Below, piece by piece: positions 4,244-62,445 of a stretch of DNA of 64,000 nucleotides; within the stretch, counting starts at the first letter, position 1; every line of letters begins with the position of its first letter. The notes beneath the pieces are model-generated. The model was not told the origin of the DNA. It did no database searches and saw nothing but the letters and a program-made list of their open reading frames with translations. This stretch comes from Lachnospiraceae bacterium (GTDB lineage Bacteria; Bacillota; Clostridia; Lachnospirales; Lachnospiraceae). Where the stretch lies: positions 110,642 to 174,641 of the forward strand of contig JAGAKD010000002.1 of NCBI GenBank assembly GCA_017625815.1, in the 5' to 3' direction. The position numbers and the translations under genes were made by a program.

Positions 4244-5611
4244 TTATTCCTCCTCAACATATAAAGTAGTAGAACTATCTTCATTACTAATTTCAGTAGT
4301 AGTTCCATTTACATATAAAATATCCGATGTTGTCTCAGTAGTTCCATCTGGATATATAATAGTTTCTGAAGACATATAGTTTTCAACATATTCAGCTATA
4401 AATTGTGCCATATAAGCTTTCATCTCGTCTTGAATATCTTCTTTAAAGCTACTTAATGTCTTACCGCTATATTTAAAAGATTTAGTAGCCTTATCAAAAA
4501 CAAAAATTGCATCATCTTCCCAAGAATCATCAAAAGCTTGAGTAGGTACAACAGGTAGATTATTAACAGTAATTTCTTTTGCTGAAATACTTCCTGATGG
4601 GGTAATTGTTACATTAGGGTCAGACTCATGTGTTTTAAAATACATATTATTATAAACACTATTAGGTCCATAATTATGTAAGATAGGAGTATTTTTTGAA
4701 AAGTCAGGACGGTCTTTTTTCCACTCCAGCTGAGAGATCCAGGTCTCAGATGTTTCATTACTAAAAATGATAAACTCTAAGCATGTACGATGGAAATTTT
4801 TTCCGTCATAAACATTTTCAACAACATTTACACCTGAATTAGCATCACCAACATAATAGCTGAAATCAATTTTTTTCCAGCCTTTTATATGGTCATAATC
4901 ATTTGTTTTATTATAACATCTGTAATGTGATCGTTTATTTAGATTTGGTAGTTTATCATAGTAGTATGATAGATAAAAATTACCATAAGGATATGTACCA
5001 TATACTTCAGATGCTGCTTTTCCTGTTAATGGTGTCCAGTCAGCTTCATTACTAAATCTTATATGAATCTTTGCATAAGAATTTGCTGGAATTTTGATAC
5101 AAGTTTCAAAACAGTTATCAAATAGATGACTAATATCTTTAGTACCAAATTCAAATGTTTCAAAAGGTTCACTATCTACCCAATAGTCTAAATCTTCAAT
5201 TGAGCCAGCTATTTTTTCATATGGATAAGTAATATTTGGATCTGCTTCATCAGTACATTTGTGATAAGTTACTTTCACCCAGAATTTTTTATCAAGTGAA
5301 GCAAAAGCATTATCTAATGAGTTTATATATAATTTTCTTCCGCCAAATGGATTACTATTTTGAATAACAGAGCCATAACTAATGGTTTCATTTACTATTT
5401 TTGTATCGAGTTCAGTATGTGATACTGCATCAATATTTGTTCGTGCCTGAGCTTTTTGCACATCGGTTAGTGCTTGTGTGGTATAATTTATTGAAGTATC
5501 AGGTGTTAAGTATATAGCCGTGGTATCTAATCTTTCATTGGTTTTTTCACGCTCATATTGGGCATCTGATAACTTATTAATCTTTAAAGCAGGTAAATTT
5601 TGTGTTATCAA
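4244..5611 (-). CDS. Tail fibre protein (455 aa)
   Basis: The N-terminal region contains ALTDVQKAQARTNIDAVS (about residues 45-62). This L-T-x-x-Q-K-A-Q-A-R-x-N-I-G/D-A motif is characteristic of phage tail fibre/collar proteins and also occurs in the 7337-8368 gene. The middle (about residues 90-330) is aromatic-rich beta-type sequence. The C-terminus is acidic and Thr/Ser-rich with repeated short TTE/STT stretches. It probably forms a side or tail-tip fibre. Confidence 0.75.
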   Translation of the reverse strand: MITQNLPALKINKLSDAQYEREKTNERLDTTAIYLTPDTSINYTTQALTDVQKAQARTNIDAVSHTELDTKIVNETISYGSVIQNSNPFGGRKLYINSLDNAFASLDKKFWVKVTYHKCTDEADPNITYPYEKIAGSIEDLDYWVDSEPFETFEFGTKDISHLFDNCFETCIKIPANSYAKIHIRFSNEADWTPLTGKAASEVYGTYPYGNFYLSYYYDKLPNLNKRSHYRCYNKTNDYDHIKGWKKIDFSYYVGDANSGVNVVENVYDGKNFHRTCLEFIIFSNETSETWISQLEWKKDRPDFSKNTPILHNYGPNSVYNNMYFKTHESDPNVTITPSGSISAKEITVNNLPVVPTQAFDDSWEDDAIFVFDKATKSFKYSGKTLSSFKEDIQDEMKAYMAQFIAEYVENYMSSETIIYPDGTTETTSDILYVNGTTTEISNEDSSTTLYVEEE

Positions 5612-37618: not shown

Positions 37619-37641
37619 AATTTTTGGCCAAGCTAAATTTA

Positions 37642-37722
37642 CGGTGCTCTACCAACTGAGCTACATGATTTTCTTCGAAAACCACGACAGGACTCGAACC
37701 TGCGACACCCGGCTTAAAAGGC
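37642..37722 (-). tRNA. Circularly permuted tRNA-Lys(UUU): 3' part precedes 5' part
   Basis: On the minus strand, 37722-37679 encodes tRNA nt 30-73: end of the anticodon stem, loop CTTTTAA, variable GTGTC, T-arm GCAGG/TTCGAGT/CCTGT, acceptor strand CGTGGTT. After an 8-nt linker, 37670-37642 encodes nt 1-29: acceptor strand AATCATG, TA, D-arm GCTC/AGTTGGTA/GAGC, A, CCG. Joining CCG to GC restores a perfect anticodon stem CCGGC/GCCGG, and AATCATG pairs with CGTGGTT over 7 bp with two G-U pairs. All 73 positions fall at canonical numbering. CCA is not encoded. The flanks can pair (GCCAA[T]GCT with AGCTTGGC). The locus has its own promoter and terminator. Nothing shows that it is matured; a rearranged relic is the alternative. 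Confidence 0.8.
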
Positions 37723-37746
37723 ATTAGAAATAAGCATTGGCTCTAT

Positions 37747-37762
37747 TATATTATACAATAAA
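37747..37762 (-). promoter_or_regulatory. Promoter motif of the permuted tRNA-Lys unit
   Basis: Exact TTTATTGTATAATATA on the minus strand, 25 nt upstream of the first tRNA-derived base and 12 nt after the stop of the 62-residue gene. Confidence 0.55.
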
Positions 37763-37774
37763 TTTTTTTATTTT

Positions 37775-39265: not shown

Positions 39266-39899
39266 ATATCTAATAATCTTAATAATGTATACTTAATAGT
39301 CCTTCAACTTACCTTAGTATAAAGACTGTTATTTGTTTACAGTGAGAATAAGACTGAGCATTAAGGAGCTACCTTAATACTTCTTACCCTAAGACACAAG
39401 GTCTATCAAACACTGACGGGATTGATACCCGCACCTTTCACCGAGGATTCAGAAAAATTGTTTAATTCTATATCCTATTATATAAAGCATTAAAAATTAA
39501 TTTCTTTAAATTTTGTACATACGGCTACTCAGAGGTAAACTTATCTTATAGTGTAATCACTTACACATCAAGTACAAAGCTTTGGTTGGTGTTTCCTTGG
39601 TTTGAAATAGATTACCAGTCTATAACCTAACAAGGATTATTCCTCACAGAGGCGTCTATTGTCAGCCCGATAAGAACCCTAACTTACACTAATTATACTA
39701 AAAGCACCAGAAACGCCATCATTGTCTGTTTCAGACTTCCCACCGCATATGTTACCGTATCGGCAGCTATATTTAATTACATTATCACATAATCAAATAT
39801 AGAGATGTTTTGCATTATGTCCCCGTCCAAGCAAGGATACAATCCCTCTTCACTTGGGTAGTAAATACACATTATTAAGATTATTAAATTGTCTTATAA
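39266..39899 (-). ncRNA. About 0.6 kb structured non-coding RNA candidate (RNA-B)
   Basis: No coding sequence on either strand, but many local stems on the minus strand: CTATATTT/AAATATAG closing a long hairpin, GTCTG-AAA-CAGAC, ATTAAGG-TAGCT-CCTTAAT, GTGTAA/TTACAC, and a compound stem (CCTT/AAGG, GGTT/AACC, ATAGA/TCTAT) capped by CTGGTAA. Two promoter motifs (39900-39915 and 39934-39949) lie immediately upstream, and tRNA-Met lies downstream. Size and tRNA-side location resemble large phage RNAs of the ROOL/GOLLD type, but I cannot assign a family. Confidence 0.55.
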
Positions 39900-41261: not shown

Positions 41262-41282
41262 AAGGCATAAAACTTATGCCTT
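41262..41282 (-). terminator. Terminator after the HAD gene
   Basis: AAGGCATAA / TTATGCCTT stem followed by a T-containing run. It touches the stop codon of the nucleotidase gene. Confidence 0.7.
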
Positions 41283-41835
41283 AATCAAAAATATTATGAA
41301 TCTTTGTATAAATTTCTTTCCAGTCCTTAACGTGATATACATTAGGTGCCTCAAAGTCTCTATTGTGTGGAGTATCTTTGAGTAAACCAATATATGGACC
41401 CACTATATTATGTTCCCCATCATCTATAAGAACATCACATCTAATTAATTGCTTATTCTTTGCTACTATAACATGCTTCCAGTCCAAGTAAGGAAAATGA
41501 ACTTTTAAACACTTATTAAACTTATGTATAACAGTATCAGGTGGAGCAGAAGTTACAATATAAAACTGAAAACCTTCTTCAATAAGTTTTGGAATATAAT
41601 ATTGAGCATCTTCCATTGGCTCAACTGTTTCCCAAAAAGCTTCTAGTCTTAAAGGAGCAAATACCTGTTCCTTTTGTAGAGTAGGAAAAGCTTTTGTTAT
41701 ATCCCAATCCACTATATCATCGTAGATTACTTTAGTGCCATACTTATTATTAAGCCACTTAATCCAAGCTGGCACCAAGTATTCTATTGTATCATCCATG
41801 TCACAAGCAATTATTATATCTTTATACTTGCTCAC
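41281..41835 (-). CDS. HAD-family 5'(3')-deoxyribonucleotidase-like phosphatase (184 aa)
   Basis: The start IIIACDMDDTIEYLVPAW contains the HAD nucleophile motif D-x-D-D-T (D12, D14). VTSAPP near residue 95 is motif II (S/T), and the K..VLIDDGEHN segment near residues 125-140 gives the motif III lysine and motif IV acidic pair. Length and layout match the NT5C-type phage nucleotidases that dephosphorylate nucleoside monophosphates during nucleotide salvage. It is coupled to an upstream membrane-protein gene with adjacent start and stop. Confidence 0.75.
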   Translation of the reverse strand: MSKYKDIIIACDMDDTIEYLVPAWIKWLNNKYGTKVIYDDIVDWDITKAFPTLQKEQVFAPLRLEAFWETVEPMEDAQYYIPKLIEEGFQFYIVTSAPPDTVIHKFNKCLKVHFPYLDWKHVIVAKNKQLIRCDVLIDDGEHNIVGPYIGLLKDTPHNRDFEAPNVYHVKDWKEIYTKIHNIFD

Positions 41836-42111
41836 TTAGTCACGTCTCCTAAATAAATGCTTAAATAGTTCACAGGGTAAAAAGAGACACGTAATCACTC
41901 CAATAAAAACAAAATAACCTACAAGTGCTGGTGCAAGTAGTATTGAAAAGACTGTTACAACTATCACAGTTCCAGGAATATTTAAGTCATCTCTTAGATG
42001 TTCAATAAGACCAGGATAAATAAATAGATTATCATTTTCAAAGCCTTCATATGTGAGACACAACATAGATATTACATTAAAGATAATATACATAACTAAA
42101 AATAATATCAT
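41836..42111 (-). CDS. Two-helix membrane protein, family copy 1 (91 aa)
   Basis: Two hydrophobic segments (residues about 2-20 and 50-80) joined by a charged loop (EGFENDNLFIYPGLIEHL), with a basic C-terminus LFRRRD. It shares the P-G-L-I...N-x-x-G-x-x-x-x-x-x-x-x-I-x-L-AP-x-x-x-G-Y-x-V pattern with proteins at 44571 and 45128. ATGA overlap with the HNH gene suggests the operon was split by insertion of that nuclease. Confidence 0.65.
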   Translation of the reverse strand: MILFLVMYIIFNVISMLCLTYEGFENDNLFIYPGLIEHLRDDLNIPGTVIVVTVFSILLAPALVGYFVFIGVITCLFLPCELFKHLFRRRD

Positions 42112-43058
42112 TCAGTTACCTCCTGTGCCTCTTCCATATCTGGTATAATATATTTTTTTATTCTATGATCTGAAATTCCATAACGTTTACCAACTGTATG
42201 TATTGGAATTCCTTGTTTCAATTCTAAAATTATTTTCATTTTTAACTCCTCTGTTATTTCGATTGAGCCAAAACGTTTTTGTTGAGCAGCGGCTAAACTT
42301 TCTTTATGAGTACTAGATTTTTCTTTACCTTTATTTGCAGCACTCATCTTTTGTTTAGTTTCTTCTGATAATGCCCAACGTGGGTGCTCTGTTTCATAAT
42401 ACTTTTGTTTGCGTTCTTCAGACCAATAGTAAGTACCATTCTTTCGTTTTGTCTCTAGTATTTTATCTATAGATTCTTGTGAAAGTTTGTGGCCTTGGGC
42501 ATTTGTATTACCTTTTTTACATTCTGAACATTTTTGTCTAAATTCCGCCGACCTTTTACGTCCCTTATTTGCTAAAGAAAGCTTTTTACGAGTTTCTTCT
42601 GATACCTGACGACCCATTTGAGCAGCTGACTGCTTACATTTAGCCTCTTCTGTTGGCTTATATAGCTTGCAAGTAGTTCTAATTTTTTCTTTGTGCTCTT
42701 CAGTTAATGGTATACCACGACGTGGTGAAATTGTACCAGTATTTCTAATTTTACTTAGTTTAGCCTGTGCTTCACGACACTCTGCAAACTCTTCAGGTGT
42801 TACTTCATGGTGATCTTTTCCCATAAAAGCCATGCATGCCCAGGCTTGTTGTAAACAGAGTATATCTGGATTTTCTTTAGCTAAAAGCTTATGAGCAATA
42901 AAATGCTCTTTTGCGGTTAAGTCTATTAAATTTTCTTCGCTGTCAGATCCGCCTTGTGCTCGAGGCACAATATGATGTCGTTCTTTATAGATATTCTCAG
43001 TAATGACTCTACCACGAGTATTTAAAATATTAGTAATGAATTGATTGTAAGTTTCCAT
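42108..43058 (-). CDS. HNH homing endonuclease with NUMOD3 repeats (316 aa)
   Basis: The N-terminal HNH domain (YKERHHIVPRAQGGSDSEENL, then LTAKEHFIAHKLL) has the HH, N and H catalytic/metal set. Residues about 110-260 contain several NUMOD3-type DNA-binding repeats (LTEEHKEKIR, VSEETRKKLSLANKG, LSEETKQKMSAANKG). The C-terminal 40 residues form a helix-turn-helix (IPIHTVGKRYGISDHRIKKY). This is the classic modular architecture of free-standing or intron-borne homing nucleases. It has its own late-type promoter and lies between coupled small genes, consistent with an insertion. Confidence 0.85.
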   Translation of the reverse strand: METYNQFITNILNTRGRVITENIYKERHHIVPRAQGGSDSEENLIDLTAKEHFIAHKLLAKENPDILCLQQAWACMAFMGKDHHEVTPEEFAECREAQAKLSKIRNTGTISPRRGIPLTEEHKEKIRTTCKLYKPTEEAKCKQSAAQMGRQVSEETRKKLSLANKGRKRSAEFRQKCSECKKGNTNAQGHKLSQESIDKILETKRKNGTYYWSEERKQKYYETEHPRWALSEETKQKMSAANKGKEKSSTHKESLAAAQQKRFGSIEITEELKMKIILELKQGIPIHTVGKRYGISDHRIKKYIIPDMEEAQEVTE

Positions 43059-43085
43059 GCTTTTATTTCCTTAAATAATTTTGTT

Positions 43086-43101
43086 ATATATTTAATTTAG
43101 C
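43086..43101 (-). promoter_or_regulatory. Late-promoter variant before the HNH-NUMOD3 gene
   Basis: GCTAAATTAAATATAT, 28 nt upstream of the homing-nuclease start. It shares GCTAAATTA with the late consensus. Confidence 0.45.
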
Positions 43102-43143
43102 TTATTTTTAAGCATAAAAACTTACAATTCAAAAAACTATTTT

Positions 43144-44556
43144 CTACATTTCAGCAAGAATATCTTCTGAAACACTATTTGGGTCTATGTTATCCACAGC
43201 TATTCCAGACAGACACTTAAAAGCAAAATTCTTGTGCTTATATGCGCAGAACTTAGGTCTATTAAGAATTCTTACTACTACACCCTCTCTAACGTGAGTC
43301 TGTCCAATTGGGTCTGGTCCATCGTAGAACTTTTCAGCGGCATTAAGTATAATATCTGATGCAGTTGGCATAGTAAGTCCAGATTCCTCAAGAACTTTTA
43401 CCTCCTCTTCAGAAGGAAGAATACCCTTATAAAATACTGGAACGGTCTTAATACCCATCTGCTCACATCTATATCTCATAAAGTCTGGAGTGTATTCTAC
43501 TACAAAACCATCTTCATTAGTCATAGTCATTCTGTAAACATAACAGTCTGATACCGGAACATCAAACTCTACTGCAAAATCTCGATCAGTAATAGACGCA
43601 TTTTCATTTATCATTACTTGTTTACCAGTTGGTGCACAACCATAAGAGAAGCAAGTAGTTTCACCGTATTGCTTGATAAAGTCCTTGTCATTGAGCTTCT
43701 TGTTTTCACAATTACCCATAATTGGAGCTCCAGTATCAGTAAAACCAACTACTTCGTAGTAAACAGTTTCACCTTTCATAAGCTTTCCTTCAAACTTCTT
43801 AGCGTGCTGCTCTCTAAAAGCATTTGAGCCATAGAAACCTTCACCGTCAAAGTCTCCAAGAACTACTCTACGAGTTCCTGAAACATAGCCGTACTCATAG
43901 ATTGGCTTACCAGGTCTTCTAAGAATTCTATCAAGTAGAGTTCTCTTGTAACCAGTTAGTCTTGGAAGGTAGCCAGTTCTCTGAGAAGTTCCATGCATCT
44001 TAAGAGTAATTTCTATCTCATCACCTGGCTTGAAGGCACCAAGATTATAAGCAAGTTGTTCAGTATCAGCATGCTCTGCAAAAAGTGGTGCAATTGGATC
44101 CTTCTTCTTACGAGTTCTATTACCGTCAGTTGGATGTCCGGTTCTCTTAGTAGTCTTTGGTATGTACTTCTTGCAGATTTCATGACCATTAAATACATTG
44201 ATAATATCACCTTCTGCAAGCTTTGAAATATCACCAAAAGCTTCGAGAGAAGTAATTGGAAGGAAAAGTCCGTCTGACTTCTCACCTCTAAGTCTGATAG
44301 TAGTTACATTTCTCTTGTCTGGGTCCATATAACCACCAATATTATTTCCGTTTTCGTCCTTCTTTCTGAGAAGGTTGTTCTTTTCCGCAAATTCTACTGA
44401 AAGCTGTCCATCAGTTGGGAAGTAAACACCAAGCTGGTTGTCTACATAATCAAGTGAAACAACTACAGTATTTCCAAAGCATTCACCACACTGAAGTCTA
44501 TCAGCATTTGAATGCTTTCTAAGATTCTTAATTCTAGTTATGTATGCGTTATACAT
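43144..44556 (-). CDS. RNA ligase, DRB0094/Rnl5-like (470 aa)
   Basis: An N-terminal OB-like segment (residues 1-125, ITRIKNLRKHSNADRLQCGECF...) precedes a nucleotidyltransferase core. Motif I is ITLKMHGTSQRTGYL with the candidate adenylated lysine K186, motif III lies near YYEVVGF (about residue 268), and a late REGVVVR...YKHKNFAFK (about residues 420-450) supplies motifs IV and V. This arrangement with an N-terminal OB domain fits the Deinococcus DRB0094/Rnl5 RNA ligases, which seal 3'-OH/5'-phosphate RNA nicks. It is the sealing enzyme of a possible RNA-repair set with the kinase-HD protein (49.3 kb) and RlaP-like protein (47.1 kb). Confidence 0.8.
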   Translation of the reverse strand: MYNAYITRIKNLRKHSNADRLQCGECFGNTVVVSLDYVDNQLGVYFPTDGQLSVEFAEKNNLLRKKDENGNNIGGYMDPDKRNVTTIRLRGEKSDGLFLPITSLEAFGDISKLAEGDIINVFNGHEICKKYIPKTTKRTGHPTDGNRTRKKKDPIAPLFAEHADTEQLAYNLGAFKPGDEIEITLKMHGTSQRTGYLPRLTGYKRTLLDRILRRPGKPIYEYGYVSGTRRVVLGDFDGEGFYGSNAFREQHAKKFEGKLMKGETVYYEVVGFTDTGAPIMGNCENKKLNDKDFIKQYGETTCFSYGCAPTGKQVMINENASITDRDFAVEFDVPVSDCYVYRMTMTNEDGFVVEYTPDFMRYRCEQMGIKTVPVFYKGILPSEEEVKVLEESGLTMPTASDIILNAAEKFYDGPDPIGQTHVREGVVVRILNRPKFCAYKHKNFAFKCLSGIAVDNIDPNSVSEDILAEM

Positions 44557-44570
44557 TGTTTATCACTCCT

Positions 44571-44804
44571 TTATTTCTTTCTACCTACTGTACAAGCTTT
44601 ATACACCCAATAACCTATTGCATACGGAGCTAATATAGTATTAAGTAAAATAGTTATTAAAATTGTACCAAAAATATTTACTTTGATAGTGTTATATATC
44701 ACTACTGGATTGAAAAATTCAAAACCAGCTGCGTTACATGATACGCCAATAAAGCAAGCAATACCTAAACTTATAAACATATACATAAATATTGCTATAA
44801 TCAT
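44571..44804 (-). CDS. Two-helix membrane protein, family copy 2 (77 aa)
   Basis: Two transmembrane segments (residues about 2-22 and 43-70). The motif FFNPVVIYNTIKVNIFGTIL...LNTILAPYAIGYWVY parallels copies at 41836 and 45128. Short basic C-terminus VGRKK. No enzymatic motif; possible envelope or superinfection-exclusion peptide family. Confidence 0.65.
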   Translation of the reverse strand: MIIAIFMYMFISLGIACFIGVSCNAAGFEFFNPVVIYNTIKVNIFGTILITILLNTILAPYAIGYWVYKACTVGRKK

Positions 44805-44820
44805 AGTATCACTCCTTATA

Positions 44821-45126
44821 TTAACTTTCGCGGTCAGCAGTAATGTCTTTCTTAGTATATCTAAATTTACTCTTAATAAAAGTTTCTACTTTTCTTAAAG
44901 CTTCACACTCAATTTGATATGTTTGATCGTTTGGATCACAATCCATACCCGTTAAGTAATGCAACTCAAAAAGAATCTTATCAATAATATCTTGTTCTTT
45001 TGCATAACCATATTCAAGTAGACCATTTGCTACATGAACGTTTCTACCTATGGTTCCAATATACCCATCATTAAGTTCTTTTATTTTATCAGCGAGTTCT
45101 ACAATTCTTTTATCTACTAAACTCAT
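44821..45126 (-). CDS. Hypothetical protein (101 aa)
   Basis: Helical acidic protein, LVDKRIVELADKIKELNDGY followed by a central helix pair and LRKVETFIKSKF. No family recognised. It sits between two members of the two-helix membrane family with 1-17 nt gaps, clearly within one operon. Confidence 0.65.
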   Translation of the reverse strand: MSLVDKRIVELADKIKELNDGYIGTIGRNVHVANGLLEYGYAKEQDIIDKILFELHYLTGMDCDPNDQTYQIECEALRKVETFIKSKFRYTKKDITADRES

Positions 45127-45127
45127 A

Positions 45128-45388
45128 TTATTTCTCCTTTTTTAAAAATATTTTACGACTATACCATATTAACACAAATGGTAAGTAAATAATGTTTAAA
45201 ATAACTCCTATTAGTATTGCACCAAACCAATTAAATCGAGTTTTTTGATGCAAATAAGCTGGGCTAAAACAAGTAAAGCCTGATTTAAGAAAAATTTCTG
45301 GCCAAATGTCAGTTAAAATAATAGTTAACATAACAATTAAAAATACATAGACTAATAAACTTAAAATAATTATTACATATACTGGCAT
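45128..45388 (-). CDS. Two-helix membrane protein, family copy 3 (86 aa)
   Basis: Hydrophobic segments at residues about 4-26 and 52-75. The loop and second helix (CFSPAYLHQKTRFNWFGAILIGVILNIIYLPFVLIW, in parts) match copies 1 and 2. GGAGG before ATG at 45388 supports this start rather than one 48 nt upstream. Overlap and spacing place it in the 44.6-46.5 kb small-gene operon. Confidence 0.65.
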   Translation of the reverse strand: MPVYVIIILSLLVYVFLIVMLTIILTDIWPEIFLKSGFTCFSPAYLHQKTRFNWFGAILIGVILNIIYLPFVLIWYSRKIFLKKEK

Positions 45389-45389
45389 A

Positions 45390-45647
45390 TCAATTCCTCC
45401 AATAAACACAAAGATCTGGGGCTGTGATAGGACCAAAATCTACTGTATAGCCAAGAAATTCTAATAAGTGTCCAAGGTCACCCGCCTCTGAAGCAGTTTC
45501 TATATTTTCTATTCTACAATAATACTTACCCTCAGCTGCTGCACCTCTTATAATATTTTCTGCTCTTTTAAATAATTCTGGCGAAACTCTTTGATAGAGA
45601 GTTATCATTGCCAGCTCTCTTGTCTTTTCTTTGTGATCGCTTAACAT
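45390..45647 (-). CDS. Hypothetical protein (85 aa)
   Basis: Small soluble protein; YYCRIENIETASEAGDLGHLLEFLGYTVDF near the C-terminus suggests a compact alpha/beta fold. Unrecognised. One-base gap to the following membrane-protein gene. Confidence 0.6.
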   Translation of the reverse strand: MLSDHKEKTRELAMITLYQRVSPELFKRAENIIRGAAAEGKYYCRIENIETASEAGDLGHLLEFLGYTVDFGPITAPDLCVYWRN

Positions 45648-45649
45648 GG

Positions 45650-45901
45650 TTAGTCCCTCCAGTTAGTTATTGCACTAATCATATTCCAGAAAGTAAGCGC
45701 AGTCCAAAGTAAAATTTCAAAATAATAACTTAGACGAAGTCTATTTATTACCATTTCTGAGTCTTTAAAGCTTCCACCTTCTTGAACTGAAACTTGAACG
45801 TCATTAAAGTCTAGCTGACAAAGTTCTACTATAGTTACAACCAAAGAAATTAGACATAGTATACAAAAAATTATTGAAATTATACTCATACATTTACTCA
45901 T
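45650..45901 (-). CDS. Membrane protein (83 aa)
   Basis: Residues 5-28 (MSIISIIFCILCLISLVVTIV) form a transmembrane segment and residues about 63-80 a second. A polar loop (DFNDVQVSVQEGGSFKDSEMVIN) lies between. Overlaps the upstream gene by 8 nt. Function unknown. Confidence 0.6.
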   Translation of the reverse strand: MSKCMSIISIIFCILCLISLVVTIVELCQLDFNDVQVSVQEGGSFKDSEMVINRLRLSYYFEILLWTALTFWNMISAITNWRD

Positions 45902-46139
45902 TATTTTTTACCTCGATTCCATAATCTTTTAATTCTTCTGCTGCCATTACAGGTGTTGAACTGTCATTTGATATACAAACCAAATGAATATAACCAAGCT
46001 GACCATCACCATATAACTGAGCAACATTAGAACTTGCTTCAGTATAATTTTCACCTATAGTTATGCCACTTTCTTTTGTGCCTGTGAAGTTGTTGTCGTC
46101 GTCAAACCACTCAACTTCATATTTATAAAAATATATCAT
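45894..46139 (-). CDS. Hypothetical protein (81 aa)
   Basis: Starts MIYFYKYEVEWFDDDNNFTGTKESGI and continues GENYTEASSNVAQLYG, giving a beta-beta-alpha layout resembling small phage proteins of the type V-x-W-x-D-x-x. No function recognised. Adjacent to a helical gene with a 1-nt gap. Confidence 0.6.
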   Translation of the reverse strand: MIYFYKYEVEWFDDDNNFTGTKESGITIGENYTEASSNVAQLYGDGQLGYIHLVCISNDSSTPVMAAEELKDYGIEVKNNE

Positions 46140-46140
46140 C

Positions 46141-46335
46141 TTAGTCTTGCTCTTTCTCTTTTAGTTCAAGCATACGGCTTTGAGCGAGCATTCCTAAGTA
46201 ATGATTTGCAAAACCAAGCATTCTTACAATCTCAAGTGGGTTGTCACTTACACAAATTCTACAAATGCAACCGTCTAATGAACGTAATTGGTCATCTTTT
46301 TCAAAGTGTGTGAAAGGTTTATCCTTTAATTGCAT
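46141..46335 (-). CDS. Hypothetical protein (64 aa)
   Basis: Short protein with FTHFEKDDQLRSLDGCICRICVSDNPLEIVRML and a C-terminal charged helix. C-x-C-x-x-C near residue 22 could bind metal but is unproven. TAATG-type junction with the upstream 61-residue gene. Confidence 0.6.
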   Translation of the reverse strand: MQLKDKPFTHFEKDDQLRSLDGCICRICVSDNPLEIVRMLGFANHYLGMLAQSRMLELKEKEQD

Positions 46336-46520
46336 TATAGTGCCTCCAATTCTTTCTCTTTTTCTTTTTGATATTGCTTACATAAAGCAATTACCTGTTT
46401 TGTTAAATCAAGAGGTGCCTCTGTCTGCTCAGCCGCCATCTCAATTTCAACCATAAATTTTGTCACGTCGTCAATAACATATAGCAAATTACTTGCTTTT
46501 ACTGCAGTTTCTTTTGTCAT
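46335..46520 (-). CDS. Small helical protein (61 aa)
   Basis: Almost wholly helical (ASNLLYVIDDVTKFMVEIEMAAEQTEAPLDLTKQVIALCKQYQKEKEKEL in parts), probably a coiled coil. Overlaps the macro-domain gene by 4 nt (ATGA), so translation is coupled. Function unknown. Confidence 0.6.
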   Translation of the reverse strand: MTKETAVKASNLLYVIDDVTKFMVEIEMAAEQTEAPLDLTKQVIALCKQYQKEKEKELEAL

Positions 46521-46996
46521 CCTTTATCACACTCGCATATTAAAATTTCTAGCTTACTTTGACCGAAGATGTCCTCAATAATTTGACGAACAATATTCCA
46601 GTCTCCACCGCCTCGTTTGCAGCCCATATATTTGGGGAAGGCTACTGAATAACCCATATCTTCTATAACTCTTTTCATACTCTCTAAAGCTGTCCTAAGA
46701 GCTCCATATTGAGTATAAACTCCGGTATAGCCGTATCTATCCTGTGCAAAGATATTTACAATATATCTATCTTCAATATCTTCATAATTAATGGGTACAG
46801 CTTGCCAAGTTCCAAGTGGGGACTTTCCTTCTTGCTTATACTCATCACAATATCTGCTGTAATTCATATAAACGTGTGGAAATTTTTCTTTAACTTGCTT
46901 AGCTAAACCAGAACCCATAACACCTTGACAATTTACTTGGTGACAAATCATATTTGCTCCAGACTCAAAGATATTACATTTAATTTCCTTTACCAT
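46517..46996 (-). CDS. Macro-domain protein (159 aa)
   Basis: Residues 13-35 read GANMICHQVNCQGVMGSGLAKQV, the macro-domain ADP-ribose-binding motif (VN-x-x-G-x-MG-x-G-L-A). YPKYMGCKRGGGDW-type sequence later forms the second loop. Family members bind ADP-ribose, de-ADP-ribosylate targets or act as ADP-ribose-1''-phosphate phosphatases, a by-product step of tRNA splicing. ATG at 46996 with GGAGG is preferred; longer frames run through the terminator-promoter hairpin. Opens an early operon. A counter-defence or RNA-repair by-product role is inferred. Confidence 0.8.
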   Translation of the reverse strand: MVKEIKCNIFESGANMICHQVNCQGVMGSGLAKQVKEKFPHVYMNYSRYCDEYKQEGKSPLGTWQAVPINYEDIEDRYIVNIFAQDRYGYTGVYTQYGALRTALESMKRVIEDMGYSVAFPKYMGCKRGGGDWNIVRQIIEDIFGQSKLEILICECDKG

Positions 46997-47012
46997 AAAG
47001 CCTCCAAAATAA

Positions 47013-47055
47013 AAATTTGCTCTAATATATAATACAATATACATAGAGCAAATTT
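47013..47055 (-). promoter_or_regulatory. Promoter embedded in a terminator hairpin
   Basis: AAATTTGCTCTA / TAGAGCAAATTT forms a 12-bp stem followed by T-rich sequence, i.e. a terminator for the RlaP-like gene. Its 19-nt loop holds ATATTGTATTATATA, a match to the early/middle promoter motif. The macro-domain start codon is 17 nt beyond the hairpin. Confidence 0.6.
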
Positions 47056-47060
47056 GCTTA

Positions 47061-48089
47061 TTAAATTTCATTTTTAACAATTCTTTCGTTAACTGAAGCT
47101 ACAAACTCATTAATTTTCTTATAGTCTGGCTTCTCTGGAAGCTCAGTAGTTTCTTTAAGTCTATCAAGCTTTGCCTCATACTCATCTACAATCTCAAAGA
47201 ATTCTTTTGTAGGTTGGTCTCGGTCGTCAAGATACTTACCATCTCTAATGCTCATTAAGAAGTCGTGGTCTTTCTCTCTATAAGTAATAATCTCACCCTT
47301 TTCAAGAATATCAAAACACATTAAATAAAGTCTAATAAGGTGCATCATATGCTTGTTAAGCTTACCACGTTCAATAGCATTAGCATTACGATGTCCAATC
47401 TTGTTATATTCTTTAACAATATTGTTCATTTCAAGCCACATACTCTTGTAATCTCTGAGTGGGTAGTGAGTAAGATTTACATCCATAAAGATTTCTGTTT
47501 CGTAACCTTCATTAACTGCCTTATCAATATAAAGCTTAATTGCATCCTCAGGCATTTCGAGGTATTGTTGCTTGAATGTATAAGCTGCATTGTTAATACT
47601 ATTTAAAATATGTTGCTCTTGACCAGCTTGACCAATAAGTCTACCTGCTTTGTTGTCAAGTCGACGTAATTGGGCGTTTGCATAACCACCAAATGAGTGA
47701 ATACACTTCTTAGAAAGAAACAAATGACGATTATCAAGAAGTTCTTTACCAATATCTGAAAGATATAAATAATGTTCTGGCTTACCGCCAAGCATTTCAA
47801 TAGTATTTGGGTTAACGTTTGATAACAAATGAATCAGCTTATTAAAACTATAAATAACTGTATCTGTTTCATCGTTAGTAAATTGTTCAAAATTTTGATT
47901 TGTAAGAATATCCATCTTACTATTTAGAGCACAACCTCTGATATCTACATCAGAAGTTTCGATATTTGTACCATAAGCATGACTTCCACCAAGTGTAAGA
48001 AGAATAATATTCTTACCAAGATGTTCATTTGTCTTTAAAAAGTCATACTTGGGGCTACTAACTTCTGCTTTAATTTGGTCTAGCGTCAT
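47061..48089 (-). CDS. RlaP-like nucleotidyltransferase (342 aa)
   Basis: LTLGGSHAYGTNIETSDVDIRG (about residues 27-48) is the Pol-beta nucleotidyltransferase signature GGSHAYG-x-x-x-x-x-SD-x-D-x-RG. This matches the RNA-repair-associated RlaP/YcgL family, found in bacterial RNA-repair operons with ligases and 5'-kinases. The remainder (LRRLDNKAGRLIGQAGQ, HMMHLIRLYLMCFDILEKGEI in parts) is also typical. ATG at 48089 has AGGTG upstream. Probable transfer of nucleotides to RNA or tRNA ends; substrate unproven. Confidence 0.75.
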   Translation of the reverse strand: MTLDQIKAEVSSPKYDFLKTNEHLGKNIILLTLGGSHAYGTNIETSDVDIRGCALNSKMDILTNQNFEQFTNDETDTVIYSFNKLIHLLSNVNPNTIEMLGGKPEHYLYLSDIGKELLDNRHLFLSKKCIHSFGGYANAQLRRLDNKAGRLIGQAGQEQHILNSINNAAYTFKQQYLEMPEDAIKLYIDKAVNEGYETEIFMDVNLTHYPLRDYKSMWLEMNNIVKEYNKIGHRNANAIERGKLNKHMMHLIRLYLMCFDILEKGEIITYREKDHDFLMSIRDGKYLDDRDQPTKEFFEIVDEYEAKLDRLKETTELPEKPDYKKINEFVASVNERIVKNEI

Positions 48090-48099
48090 TAAAATCACC

Positions 48100-48543
48100 T
48101 CAATTTCTAAGTTCTTCTCTCACTGCCATTAAAATCTTCCCAAGTCGATTTTCACCAACTATATCTTTACACTTCTCACAATAACAATCGCCCCAGCAGT
48201 TGTCATGCCAGTAGGTGCCTTCAATAAGTTTAGCATCACCAGTTGCAAGAAGTTTTTCTCTCAAATTATAGTTCTGTTCAAACTTTGCTTTTACAATTTC
48301 ATACATCTTTTGAGTCTTAACTTCTTCCCAGTCAGGTCTTAGAGTAAGCTTTCTTCCAAGTTTCTTGGAATCTCTCGGACTTAAATTTTGAAATTTGTAT
48401 CTTTCTTCAACAATTTGAGTTTTTTGAGCATGGAAGGCTGCTTCACTGTTAGTATAAGTAATGCCTTCATAGAGCACCGGAGCCATATAAAAGTTGCTCA
48501 AAAAATCATAGTCACCATCAAATATGTCAATTATTTTCTTCAT
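48100..48543 (-). CDS. NADAR-domain protein (147 aa)
   Basis: DGDYDFLSNFYMAPVLYEGITY followed by NSEAAFHAQKT and, at the end, YWHDNCWGDCYCEKCKDIVGENRLGKILMAVREEL in parts, match the NADAR (DUF1768) family: FLSNFY, G-x-x-Y-x-x-x-E, WG...G-x-N-x-LG-x-x-LM-x-x-R. NADAR proteins hydrolyse N-glycosidic ADP-ribose bonds and some remove ADP-ribose from DNA guanine. Located with macro-domain and RNA-repair genes, it may counter host ADP-ribosylating toxins. Activity here is inferred. Confidence 0.8.
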   Translation of the reverse strand: MKKIIDIFDGDYDFLSNFYMAPVLYEGITYTNSEAAFHAQKTQIVEERYKFQNLSPRDSKKLGRKLTLRPDWEEVKTQKMYEIVKAKFEQNYNLREKLLATGDAKLIEGTYWHDNCWGDCYCEKCKDIVGENRLGKILMAVREELRN

Positions 48544-48832
48544 GTCTATCTATCTCCAATCTTTCAATAGTAATGTCTTGAATTCCTCGAGTAGTTAAGG
48601 GTACAATCATACAATTATAGACTCCCAGTGTTGATAAGGTATCATTAATTGAATCTAATACAAGTCGTATTGACTCTGCAGGTGCATTACCTAAATCAAC
48701 TTTTATTAAGTTAACAAAAGACGCATCTAGTGAAATTTGTTCGACAGCTTTATTAACTATATTTGCAATATCTGCTATTTTTGCGCCATCAGCTACTTCT
48801 AATGTTAAATTTTTAATATTTATCTTAGCCAT
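48527..48832 (-). CDS. Hypothetical protein (101 aa)
   Basis: Unrecognised alpha/beta protein (INIKNLTLEVADGAKIADIANIVNKAV..., later VYNCMIVPLTTRGIQDITIERLEI). Overlaps the NADAR gene by 17 nt, so the two are probably co-translated. No motif visible. Confidence 0.6.
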   Translation of the reverse strand: MAKINIKNLTLEVADGAKIADIANIVNKAVEQISLDASFVNLIKVDLGNAPAESIRLVLDSINDTLSTLGVYNCMIVPLTTRGIQDITIERLEIDRHEENN

Positions 48833-48833
48833 A

Positions 48834-49067
48834 TTAATCCTCTATATAAGTTTCTGGCTTGCCATTTGCTGAAAAAGTATAAACTACTTTAGCACACACC
48901 TTTTCAACATCGGCTTCTGCACAAATAGACTCAGAACAACCGTTTGACAGATTTATATCACCTCTATTTGAGACTATATAAACATCTCCGTGCCACAAAA
49001 AGCAATCTCCCATACTTAAAGTATTTCTTGCTACTTTATACATTACTTTTTCTTCATAACATCTCAT
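48834..49067 (-). CDS. Small protein of the LxxGxxF family (77 aa)
   Basis: LSMGDCFLWHGDVYIVSNRGDINLSNG follows the pattern L-x-x-G-x-x-F-x-x-x-x-x-Y-x-V ... L-x-x-G shared with genes at 40543, 49064 and 52215. The start at 49067 is set by AGGAGGG 7 nt upstream. Its ATGA overlap with the next gene (49064) supports coupled expression. Function unknown. Confidence 0.6.
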   Translation of the reverse strand: MRCYEEKVMYKVARNTLSMGDCFLWHGDVYIVSNRGDINLSNGCSESICAEADVEKVCAKVVYTFSANGKPETYIED

Positions 49068-49276
49068 ATTCCGTCCCTCCTTGGAATAGCTAAATCTACA
49101 CCATCAATTACATATCTAAGTTCAATAGGACACACCCCAGCAATATCACAAAAAGTTACATGGTGTCCATTATGTAAACAAATTGCATTTGAAGCAGTAT
49201 CATTTGAAATCTTGATATAACAAGTTTCAAGACACTTAAAAGCTTCGCCGCGTTTTAATTCCTTAAAATATTTCAT
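49064..49276 (-). CDS. Small protein of the LxxGxxF family (70 aa)
   Basis: KYFKELKRGEAFKCLETCYIKISNDTASNAICLHNGHHV has the family layout L-x-x-G-x-x-F-x-x-x-x-x-Y-x-K ... NA-x-x-L-x-x-G. Overlaps the end of the kinase-HD gene by 4 nt. May be a small SH3-like adaptor; unproven. Confidence 0.6.
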   Translation of the reverse strand: MKYFKELKRGEAFKCLETCYIKISNDTASNAICLHNGHHVTFCDIAGVCPIELRYVIDGVDLAIPRRDGI

Positions 49277-50448
49277 ATAATAGTAATCCTTTCTGCAAAC
49301 TTTTTCATAATAGCACGAGTAAAGAATTTAAGTCTTGGACCGTCCATATACTCGGTATCCGCTTCTAAAGTTCCATCTTCCTTGATATAAATGGTATACT
49401 CTCCAGCTCCCATATCCGGTGCTGCCCAAGAAATAATTACAGAAGTTATACCTTGCCATCTACCGGAAGTAACTTCAAGAATTTCTATATCCTGATATCT
49501 ATCAAGAACATCATATACATTATGTTTAGCTCCAAAGTTATCACAGTTCATAAGAAGAAGCAAGTTGCTAAACAATATTGGGCCAAAAAGCTCTCTATAT
49601 TTATTTATTGTCTCAGTCTTGCCACGAACTATGTCTCTAATGTGCATATGTTCACCAGCATAAAAAGCAATCTCCAAGTCATTGTATACATAGCCAGTTA
49701 AACCGGCACCCAAAATCCAAAGTGCCGAATAGTTTGCGTGGCAGTAGTAATGTCCCTGACCTTCTTCATCAATAGTCTGAGTATAAAGCTTTCCGACATC
49801 GTGATAAACACAAGCAGCAATTAAGTTATTATTCTCAATAGTGCTTCTGTCTTCCTGCTTTAATTCTTCAATCATACAATCATAAACATTCTGACAGTGA
49901 TTCCAAAGAGTAAACTTATGATGTTTATTTTTCTGATCAAACATTCTCATTCTGTCTGCAATATCATGCCAACGCTCCTTGTGATAAACAAGCTCTCCCA
50001 TCTCTGGAATTACTATCTCATCAAAACCTTCAAAAAGCATAGGAACCTCAAAACTTGCAGTCATTCTTCTAATAACTTCCTCACCAACAGTTCTGTCCCT
50101 TGCGGCATCACGCTCAATGCAAACATCAAAGAAAGTTGGAATAATATGACACTCTCTAAGAATATTCATATCCTTAAACTTTTCAAGGCAGCGTCTACGG
50201 CTCTTTCTGGTCATATTGGTAGCATCTATAATAGCAGTACAGTCCTGTTCAAGACACTTTCTAGCCTCTGCATACAAAGTCTTAAAAACGAGCTCATTTT
50301 GGCTCTGGTCATTGACATCGTGAAGAAGTCTTTCTCTGTATTCATCACTTGAAAAAACAAAAGCGTCTGCGTGAGTTCTTGCAAATTCCTTTGCGTATGT
50401 AGACTTTCCGCTTCCTGGAAGTCCAACTAATATAATTAACTTTGCCAT
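49273..50448 (-). CDS. Polynucleotide kinase-HD fusion (RNA end healing) (391 aa)
   Basis: The N-terminal kinase domain (about 1-165) has Walker A GLPGSGKST at residues 9-17, SSDEYR, DATNMTRKSRR and a lid-type ERDAARDRTVGEEV, as in T4 Pnkp-type 5'-kinases. The C-terminal domain (about 175-391) has HD-superfamily ligands (HHKFTLWNH, YHDVGK, HANYSALW). Fusion of a 5'-OH kinase with an HD 2',3'-phosphatase is known as HD-Pnk, usually with HD first; here the kinase is first. It would prepare broken RNA ends for ligation. ATG 50448 has AGGAGG 8 nt upstream. Confidence 0.75.
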   Translation of the reverse strand: MAKLIILVGLPGSGKSTYAKEFARTHADAFVFSSDEYRERLLHDVNDQSQNELVFKTLYAEARKCLEQDCTAIIDATNMTRKSRRRCLEKFKDMNILRECHIIPTFFDVCIERDAARDRTVGEEVIRRMTASFEVPMLFEGFDEIVIPEMGELVYHKERWHDIADRMRMFDQKNKHHKFTLWNHCQNVYDCMIEELKQEDRSTIENNNLIAACVYHDVGKLYTQTIDEEGQGHYYCHANYSALWILGAGLTGYVYNDLEIAFYAGEHMHIRDIVRGKTETINKYRELFGPILFSNLLLLMNCDNFGAKHNVYDVLDRYQDIEILEVTSGRWQGITSVIISWAAPDMGAGEYTIYIKEDGTLEADTEYMDGPRLKFFTRAIMKKFAERITII

Positions 50449-50471
50449 AATAAGCCTCCTAAAATTTACTA

Positions 50472-50513
50472 TTTTATTATACAATAAAAGGTGAGCTAAT
50501 TTAGCCCACCTTT
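50472..50513 (-). promoter_or_regulatory. Terminator followed by promoter
   Basis: Hairpin AAAGGTG/CACCTTT (with inner GCTAA/TTAGC) at 50487-50513 ends the upstream operon. TTTATTGTATAATAAAAT on the minus strand (50472-50489) directly follows as promoter for the kinase-HD gene. The GCTAAATTA here belongs to the terminator palindrome, not to a late promoter. Confidence 0.6.
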
Positions 50514-57990: not shown

Positions 57991-58662
57991 TTAAATTCTC
58001 CATAAAGGATGTTTTTTTAATACTAAAAAGCTTCTAATTGCTCTTAAACATTTCTGATAATACGACTGAAACTCTTCAATAGATAGTCCTAAAGATTTTG
58101 CATTTTCTTTGTCTGGCATCGGCCACTCTGAATTAAAACCAAATTTATTTCGTATCAAAGTAATTGCCTTCTCGCTAAAATATTTATCCATAAATGCACT
58201 AATCTTGTTAATAGTTTTTTCCACATCTGGGTCAAGACCTTCGTCTATCTCAAAAGTATCATCTACTAAAATATCTTTTAGTAGCATTTCGTCACCGTTT
58301 CTATTTGTAAATAAAGGTTCATCAAGTGATTTAGTATCAGGATTATGAAAATAATAAACTTTTAAAAAATTCCAAATCTGCCTTGACGCACATAAAGCAG
58401 CATAAGAGCTAAAACAAGACTTTGACTCGTCATTTATATCATAAGTTCTAGCCGCTTTAATAACGCCAATTAATGATTCAGAAAAACAATCATCCTGGTA
58501 AGCTTCAGTTGGACTAAATCTATAAGCCAGTCGTGAACAAAGCTTAACCATGGCACGAATAATTTGTTCTAATAAGTCATTATTATTCGCTTTTTGATAT
58601 TCTACAACTAACTGATTTAATTCATCTCGTGAAAGTTCAATTGCCGGAATGTGAATGGTCAT
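57991..58662 (-). CDS. Sigma-70-family RNA polymerase sigma factor-like protein (223 aa)
   Basis: A region-2-like segment (DDCFSESLIGVIKAARTYDINDESKSCFSSYAALCASRQIWNFLK, in parts) matches the -10-binding helix of sigma-70 proteins (FSY-x-A-x-x-A-x-R-x-I). A possible region 4 (KENAKSLGLSIEEFQSYYQKCLRAIRSFL) near the C-terminus carries the helix-turn-helix-like pattern. This size and layout fit phage sigma factors that redirect host polymerase to late promoters. The recurrent GCTAAATTATAYGATG motif is a plausible target. Confidence 0.7.
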   Translation of the reverse strand: MTIHIPAIELSRDELNQLVVEYQKANNNDLLEQIIRAMVKLCSRLAYRFSPTEAYQDDCFSESLIGVIKAARTYDINDESKSCFSSYAALCASRQIWNFLKVYYFHNPDTKSLDEPLFTNRNGDEMLLKDILVDDTFEIDEGLDPDVEKTINKISAFMDKYFSEKAITLIRNKFGFNSEWPMPDKENAKSLGLSIEEFQSYYQKCLRAIRSFLVLKKHPLWRI

Positions 58663-62378: not shown

Positions 62379-62445
62379 AGCTCAAGACAGGAATCGAACC
62401 TGTTCTTCCTAACTCAGTAGACGTTTTACCAATCACCACTTGAGC
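62379..62445 (-). tRNA. Short tRNA-like gene, identity unclear (67 nt)
   Basis: Acceptor GCTCAAG/CTTGAGC and T-arm ACAGG-TTCGATT-CCTGT are perfect. The D-arm and anticodon region total only 35 nt, giving a 6-nt anticodon loop CTGAGT and a poor D-stem. No CCA. Possibly defective or shortened; the anticodon cannot be assigned safely. Confidence 0.5.

Follow-up and report, generated by a model that had tools for sequence, protein, structure and literature searches.

A Y RNA can be superposed on tRNA through a circular permutation (excerpts of PMC11472068), and tRNA-mimicking Y RNAs of phages are already in print (excerpts of PMC12282133 and PMC7765460). In Listeria phage CKA15, putative Y RNAs lie upstream of the Rsr-like gene CKA15_055, with the identity of the RNAs left open in the excerpted text (PMC12282133). 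A Y RNA of D. radiodurans tethers Ro60 to PNPase (excerpts of PMC8394870), and the tRNA-like domain of Salmonella YrlA has been proposed as a competitive inhibitor of anticodon nuclease, YrlA itself not being a substrate of the nuclease studied (excerpts of PMC7790460). Mimicry of tRNA by Y RNAs, phage Ro60-type proteins and phage Y RNAs are all known; in the open-licence papers that we searched, nothing turned up on anticodon arms in Y RNAs or on Y-like RNAs that lack Ro. The other comparable system is the circularly permuted tRNA gene of algae and archaea, in which the 3' half comes first, the halves rejoin into a cloverleaf and the flanks can pair (excerpts of PMC3978253). The original prediction placed such a gene, for tRNA-Lys(UUU), in a phage and knew of none described there. 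Among the open-licence papers listed by our searches on permuted tRNA genes there was indeed none on phages (the word 'phage' is absent from the review PMC3978253), but the statement has to be qualified by the phage Y RNAs cited above.

The locus lies in a 64,000-nucleotide stretch of DNA, analysed as a whole and here called the window, which takes up the final part (110642-174641) of contig C94 in a MAG (G000). Contigs C84 and C94 of this MAG share a 30,030-base overlap with one difference, so the phage probably measures at least 220 kb; the redundancy of the two contigs reflects redundant phage assembly within a bacterial bin. C94 terminates within a tRNA gene, and the genome is therefore not closed at that end.

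On the minus strand, which carries every feature of the locus, a permuted tRNA layout occupies 37741-37628: the 3' half, an 8-nt linker and the 5' half, with a promoter-like motif and a terminator on either side. This is the order originally described, and the sequence bears it out. The promoter-like motif TATAATATAATA (37755-37744) precedes the 5' strand of a basal helix (GCCAA-T-GCT, RNA GCCAA-U-GCU; 37741-37733). TATTTCTAAT separates this strand from the tRNA 3' half, and a conserved UAUUUC (37732-37727) stands directly after the strand. The 3' half (37722-37680), which covaries with three relatives, comprises nt 30-31 (GC), the anticodon loop (CTTTTAA, RNA CUUUUAA), nt 39-43 (GCCGG), the variable loop (GTGTC), the T arm (GCAGG, TTCGAGT, CCTGT) and the acceptor 3' strand (CGTGGTT). 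It is joined by the linker TTCGAAGA (37679-37672), 8 nt without CCA, to the 5' half (37671-37643), which comprises the acceptor 5' strand (AATCATG), TA (RNA UA), the D arm (GCTC, AGTTGGTA, GAGC), nt 26 (A) and nt 27-29 (CCG). TAAATTT then leads to the basal 3' strand (AGC-TTGGC, RNA AGC-UUGGC; 37635-37628), identified from the fold, the motif sites and the alignment, and an intrinsic terminator with a 10-bp stem and a T run is predicted at 37618-37594.

Rejoining the halves at 29|30 restores, as had been claimed, a complete cloverleaf including the anticodon arm, in which a 5-bp stem (CCG|GC / GCCGG) closes the CTTTTAA loop of Lys(UUU) type. The 7-bp acceptor includes G-U pairs; when the RNA is folded as a single strand, the linker lengthens this helix to 10 bp, closed by a GAA triloop; the flanks, which had been predicted to be able to pair, do so over 8 bp with a bulged U. 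The minimum-energy fold (z = -2.7) pairs the anticodon region differently, and the 29|30 anticodon arm is absent from it. Our module scanner returned one hit in the window versus none in 20 dinucleotide shuffles, and neither ARAGORN nor the Rfam tRNA model made a call on the permuted module.

Whether the locus forms its own transcription unit, as originally proposed, can be affirmed in part. The terminator stands and the unit is apparent, but the promoter is only plausible: a simple sigma-70 scan lists none just upstream of the RNA on the minus strand. Contig C94 has 7 copies of the TATAATATAATA motif, counting the window site, every one of them on the minus strand, and the RNAs of relatives are preceded by similar motifs; judged from sequence, a promoter role is plausible, and the locus is presumably transcribed. 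The phage also encodes a sigma-70 region 2 protein (57991-58662, minus strand), which might read TATAATATAATA-type promoters.

The best Rfam match of the window RNA was YrlA (RF02553; 42.8 bits, E 2.9e-8 for 501 bases), short of the gathering score of 69. Two RNAs of Bop (Schiekvirus), located upstream of a Ro-like gene, also had YrlA as their best match below gathering (45.8 and 34.3 bits). Weak YrlA hits occur in ordinary genomes (7 of 14 controls at E <= 0.001). A YrlA search of 37 genomes of the genus gave hits in 19, with the window's own RNA on top; the other loci printed by the scanner (L009-L013, L015) resemble neighbouring ordinary tRNAs. A weak YrlA hit by itself was therefore given no weight. 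In architecture the window RNA follows YrlA, a mimic of tRNA that binds Ro60 (Rsr) and is modified by TruB/DusA: basal strand, T arm, hairpin acceptor, D arm, basal strand. It thus has the permuted T arm-acceptor hairpin-D arm module, as well as a basal stem built from both ends (8 bp with a bulge, covarying). By contrast, the Rfam consensus has no anticodon loop while the window RNA has a full anticodon arm, the basal motif is different, and no linked Ro60/Rsr gene was found in C94, C84, the MAG or the relative G037, nor Ro60 in the phage group. We therefore class the locus among Y-RNA-like variants and not within YrlA itself.

The same permuted module was recovered by blastn at 73-77% identity in 20 Enterococcus phage records, in two of which a hypothetical protein overlaps the match; the four records that we opened belong to Herelleviridae, Schiekvirus, and have no annotated feature in the matched stretch. 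Schiekvirus loci hold three or four tandem units with a common repeated element, whose enclosing helices show compensating differences, and a second permuted module is present in L004, L005 and L007. A self-splicing (permuted intron-exon) reading of these repeated elements was rejected: at E <= 5, Rfam put YrlA first, and the only intron match was group-II-D1D4-4 (13.1 bits, E 2.5). Closer relatives in viral contigs (L265/L292, L297 and L301) keep the promoter-like motif, the basal motif and the cloverleaf; an exact T-arm pattern search of the viral contigs found none. In an alignment of four rows only, with the structure defined from the window row, 111 of 111 cells across 29 pairs were paired and 10 pairs changed on both sides, a result seen in 0 of 500 shuffles, and sliding the partners lowered pairing to 25-43%. 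Pair 27-43 is C-G in two of the four RNAs and A-U in two. Comparing the locus between related phages, one of the checks originally suggested for it, has revealed compensatory changes between the two halves.

Modules of this kind form a wider class of at least 122: at least 20 from a first scan, at least 96 from a second, and six from inspected phages and the window, with at least 116 from viral contigs. To pass the scanner a module needs TTCRA, fully paired T and acceptor stems, a score of at least 14, a linker of 3-15 and a variable loop of 4-5; modules with both halves inside ARAGORN tRNAs are dropped, and those that fail (for example in L104 and L112) go uncounted. Because TTACTTC was the selection motif of the second scan, all of its modules come from loci with this motif, and all class counts include related contigs that are not independent of one another. 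Among the matches listed, 92 viral-contig loci have at least four anticodon-stem pairs, and at 72 of these a Ro60-type cluster protein lies within 5 kb. In all 72 listed cases the gene is on the same strand as the RNA, at a median distance of 140 nt, and the RNA is upstream in 62, an arrangement like that of CKA15, where the phage RNA genes are on the same strand as the Rsr-like gene and upstream of it (excerpts of PMC12282133). TROVE was above cut-off in 5/5 sampled members of the cluster protein. In the first scan, which was not selected on the motif, Ro60 was found at 8 of 17 loci among the matches listed. Rfam at gathering called no YrlA at 20 viral-contig loci; of these 20, 16 pass the module filter, and the Ro60 cluster protein is present at 14.

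Once the helix is extended, 86 of the 122 modules listed have an acceptor closed by 3-4 nt, the loops of the other 36 being longer (up to 13 nt). GNRA, UNCG or CUUG make up 53 of the 71 four-nt loops listed, and CCA falls within the first 5 linker nt in 6 of the 122. Among the 79 listed modules that bear an anticodon arm, 58 are closed by 3-4 nt, and 39 of 48 four-nt loops are GNRA, UNCG or CUUG. Such closure, mostly without CCA, resembles a permanent cap rather than a spacer at which RNase P and RNase Z would act.

A whole anticodon arm (5 pairs, T33, R37) is rebuilt by 79 of the 122 modules listed versus 1.3 expected; each arm is the best of several break points with T33 and R37 rewarded, and the shuffles, single-letter rather than dinucleotide here and for the short hairpins below, made the same choice. 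The first scan alone (at least 20 modules in 18 loci) gave 11 arms versus 0.13 expected, with 15/20 acceptors closed by 3-4 nt. Arm-bearing modules listed have 46 distinct anticodon stems, and their arms follow the 36/37 rule of tRNAs: among 78 unique arms listed, A37 follows A/U in 52/53 and G37 follows G/C in 20/25 (Fisher p 5e-13). That most modules listed rebuild a rule-abiding anticodon arm is new here. Many different anticodons occur among the other members listed, and the break point ranges between 26 and 31. Ser (eight) and Leu (seven) anticodons account for 15 of the 79 arms listed, on bodies with a 4-5-nt variable loop, a length for which the scanner preselects. Real Ser and Leu tRNAs are not known to have such short variable loops. 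The anticodon arm is kept, and probably not for ordinary decoding.

In the Schiekvirus genomes that we opened, the gene that follows the RNAs carries a DUF2828 domain (L004 by profile, L006 by annotation). The L004 protein matches 669 of 50,697 phage records, and the annotation 'Ro-like RNA binding protein' stands on several of the mycobacteriophage matches listed; a profile built from 13 Ro-like proteins matched the profile of the TROVE cluster proteins at 99%. Among the 13 inspected phages with such proteins, four have the permuted module (Schiekvirus, counted once, PJN02, FelixO1 and FBKp34), another four (LP-048, Staph 74, Staph 41 and VRE9_2) have an RNA with a similar basal stem ending ACAGC and no tRNA module, and in five (Erwinia phage, Aegeus, Milchi, CPX and Grn1) neither was convincingly found; the basal-stem scan left out L006. 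In Listeria phage LP-048 the RNA is upstream of the DUF2828 gene, with the stem AGGAAGC/GCTTCCT. Unannotated RNAs of this ACAGC-ending, module-free kind near phage Ro-like genes are at 2822 in L018, 4538 in L022 and 4915 in L023, with further ones at 2902 in L017 and at 4728 and 5349 in L026.

The window's own phage group presents a different neighbour. Sibling RNAs in C84 and 15 viral loci adjoin a protein of ~650 aa, which we call X. Nine of the 15 loci supply distinct sites, and the shared RNA motif, [5 nt]-U-R-CUUAUUUC ... AGY-[5 nt], is present in all nine. Of 36 motif sites, 35, the window's included, have a matching 3' partner (0.42 expected), amounting to 17 distinct helices. Eleven of the RNAs at these sites score as permuted tRNAs, a few others look tRNA-like, and 19 short siblings of 53-65 nt have the same basal stem without the tRNA module. 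X has no Pfam family above cut-off. As a candidate TROVE relative it was rejected, since no similarity was detected: against Ro/TROVE profiles it gave 0.3-0.6%, the same as reversed controls, with a shallow X alignment. Against TerD it gave 52% with a 12-sequence alignment, 12% with a 10-sequence alignment and 0.3% reversed, so that a TerD-like C-terminus is only weakly suggested by sequence. Relatives of X lie beside permuted RNAs in L120, L142 and the phages Weasels2 and RcXuper, with no Ro-type match in L120 (11.3 kb) or L142 (only 2 kb); in LR745208 the 4 kb on either side of the X relative gave no permuted RNA in the module scan. X and the window RNA are not adjacent on the assembled contigs and are assigned to one phage because of the overlap between C84 and C94.

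No TROVE, DUF2828 or DUF7788 match was found in the MAG (the DUF2828 search having no positive control; the DUF7788 model does give hits in other phages), no Ro-type profile matched C94 or C84 (the phage contig being open at one end), and TROVE, DUF7788 and VWA_2 were absent from the 233-kb relative G037. One of the MAG's two vWA hits was dismissed as a Ro candidate, being the host protein YfbK. A neighbouring 470-aa protein, also tried, was not Ro-like by eye and had no confirmed relatives and no Pfam or PHROG match. We infer that X stands in for Ro60 in this group.

RNA-repair genes lie 5-13 kb from the permuted RNA, all on the minus strand: an RNA ligase (43144..44556; phrog_968 RNA ligase, E 1.3e-62, with Pfam RNA_ligase and PHA02142 just below cut-off), a Macro-domain protein (46517..47080; PF01661 above cut-off), an RlaP nucleotidyltransferase of RNA repair (47061..48098; PF10127 above cut-off, phrog_388) and a polynucleotide-kinase-like P-loop protein (49273..50484; PF13671 above cut-off), whose best PHROG is phrog_6931, function not assigned, followed by phrog_505 polynucleotide kinase (E 3.3e-22). 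The repair region (41281-50484, minus strand) also codes for an NT5C nucleotidase. An RNA_ligase match at C94:17050 was set aside as DNA ligase-like by eye. RtcB was found in neither the MAG nor G037. A nearby intact tRNA-Lys, which the original prediction had named as a sign of debris, was not called: none of the 7 ARAGORN tRNAs of C94 is tRNA-Lys, and C84 has no ARAGORN tRNA at all. Rfam, but not ARAGORN, called two more tRNAs in the window: one is Ile-like by eye, and the other, a weak match at 62379-62445 (minus strand, 35.6 bits), has an ambiguous anticodon loop. A ROOL RNA (RF03087, 307 bits; 39278-39881, minus strand) sits between tRNA genes, ~1.5 kb upstream of the permuted RNA.

We consider it likely that the locus encodes a tRNA-mimicking, Y-RNA-like noncoding RNA of ~120 nt rather than a permuted tRNA precursor, because of the YrlA match, the Ro60-type linkage, the capped acceptors, the basal covariation, the module-free siblings, the X relatives beside permuted RNAs and the RNA-repair genes. 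The sequence, the conserved fold, the gene linkage and the anticodon arm are seen directly. Against it we count the YrlA score below gathering, the weak hits in control genomes, the missing Ro in the window's group, the lack of Ro similarity in X, the X relative of LR745208 with no RNA nearby, the distance between X and the window RNA, an anticodon arm preserved well beyond the needs of a pure body mimic, and the phage-encoded RNA ligase. The ends of such an RNA would form the basal stem and its apex a circularly permuted tRNA cloverleaf; with the usual tRNA ends closed by a hairpin and the strand opening in the anticodon stem (29|30), it would mimic tRNA without splicing. A Ro60-type protein is the likely partner at many loci of the class; in the window's phage group the partner is probably X, which may bind the basal stem. 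By analogy with the D. radiodurans and Salmonella Y RNAs, the basal stem could hold X while the cloverleaf presents a tRNA-Lys lookalike. The tRNA or anticodon lookalike might attract or block tRNA-recognising proteins, such as an anticodon nuclease or RNase, and by the same analogy a role as bait or inhibitor against a tRNA-cleaving defence would fit the setting of phage RNA-repair genes.

A sharper form of the Y-RNA-like explanation, and not an alternative to the RNA class, is that the displayed anticodon arm is itself the working part, a decoy for an anticodon nuclease, and that the permutation merely seats it on the basal stem. We advance this tentatively. tRNA-Lys UUU is the tRNA cut by PrrC-type enzymes, and the window, L297 and L301 have an identical loop, CUUUUAA, even as pair 27-43 covaries; however, the loop of L292a is GUU, and other members display many different anticodons. 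A lone anticodon-like stem-loop occurs in 10 of the 19 short siblings (1.9 expected), four of them with CUUUUAA, but not in the two short siblings of the window phage itself. The RNA-repair genes suit a decoy, as does the inhibitor role proposed for Salmonella YrlA, although the nuclease in question did not use YrlA as a substrate (excerpts of PMC7790460). The RNA is a candidate decoy only.

Less probable, and in our view improbable, is the original proposal of a true circularly permuted tRNA-Lys gene, whose product would be cleaved at 29|30, circularised by ligation and matured by RNase P, RNase Z and CCA addition as in algae and archaea. The complete cloverleaf, the rebuilt arms and their adherence to the 36/37 rule, the kinase-like protein and the absence of an ARAGORN tRNA-Lys from both contigs speak for it, and the phage RNA ligase keeps it alive at low probability. 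Yet most acceptors are capped, CCA is absent from the first 5 linker nt of 116 of the 122 modules listed, the break point varies, short siblings have the same flanks without a tRNA body, Ser and Leu anticodons sit on short-variable-loop bodies, Ro60-type genes accompany many loci and neither the MAG nor G037 yielded RtcB. We know of no splicing endonuclease in bacteria or phages. Algal and archaeal permuted tRNA genes differ in the same respects, namely the capped acceptor mostly without CCA, the module-free siblings and the protein linkage (excerpts of PMC3978253).

That the locus is a relic of tandem tRNA duplication or an att-like rearrangement, as first allowed for, is very unlikely on sequence grounds: tandem tRNAs minus their outer halves would yield the same order, but the compensatory changes, the basal partners at motif sites and the module shared with Enterococcus phages lead us to reject it.

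For phage biology, an apparent permuted tRNA is probably explained as a Y-RNA-like mimic, which exposes a large class of phage RNAs, mostly without ARAGORN or Rfam names and many of them with an anticodon arm that obeys the tRNA rule, and makes X a possible Ro-free partner protein. It is conceivable, though we would not wager on it, that phages use Y-RNA-like stems, bound by Ro60 or, in the window's group, by the unrelated X, to show whole permuted tRNAs or anticodon stem-loops on their own, the anticodons being genuine and changing. Such RNAs would act, in concert with phage RNA repair, as baits or inhibitors specific to an anticodon, directed against tRNA-cleaving defences of the host. An anticodon-bearing form near RNA-repair genes would make the bait or inhibitor idea directly testable.
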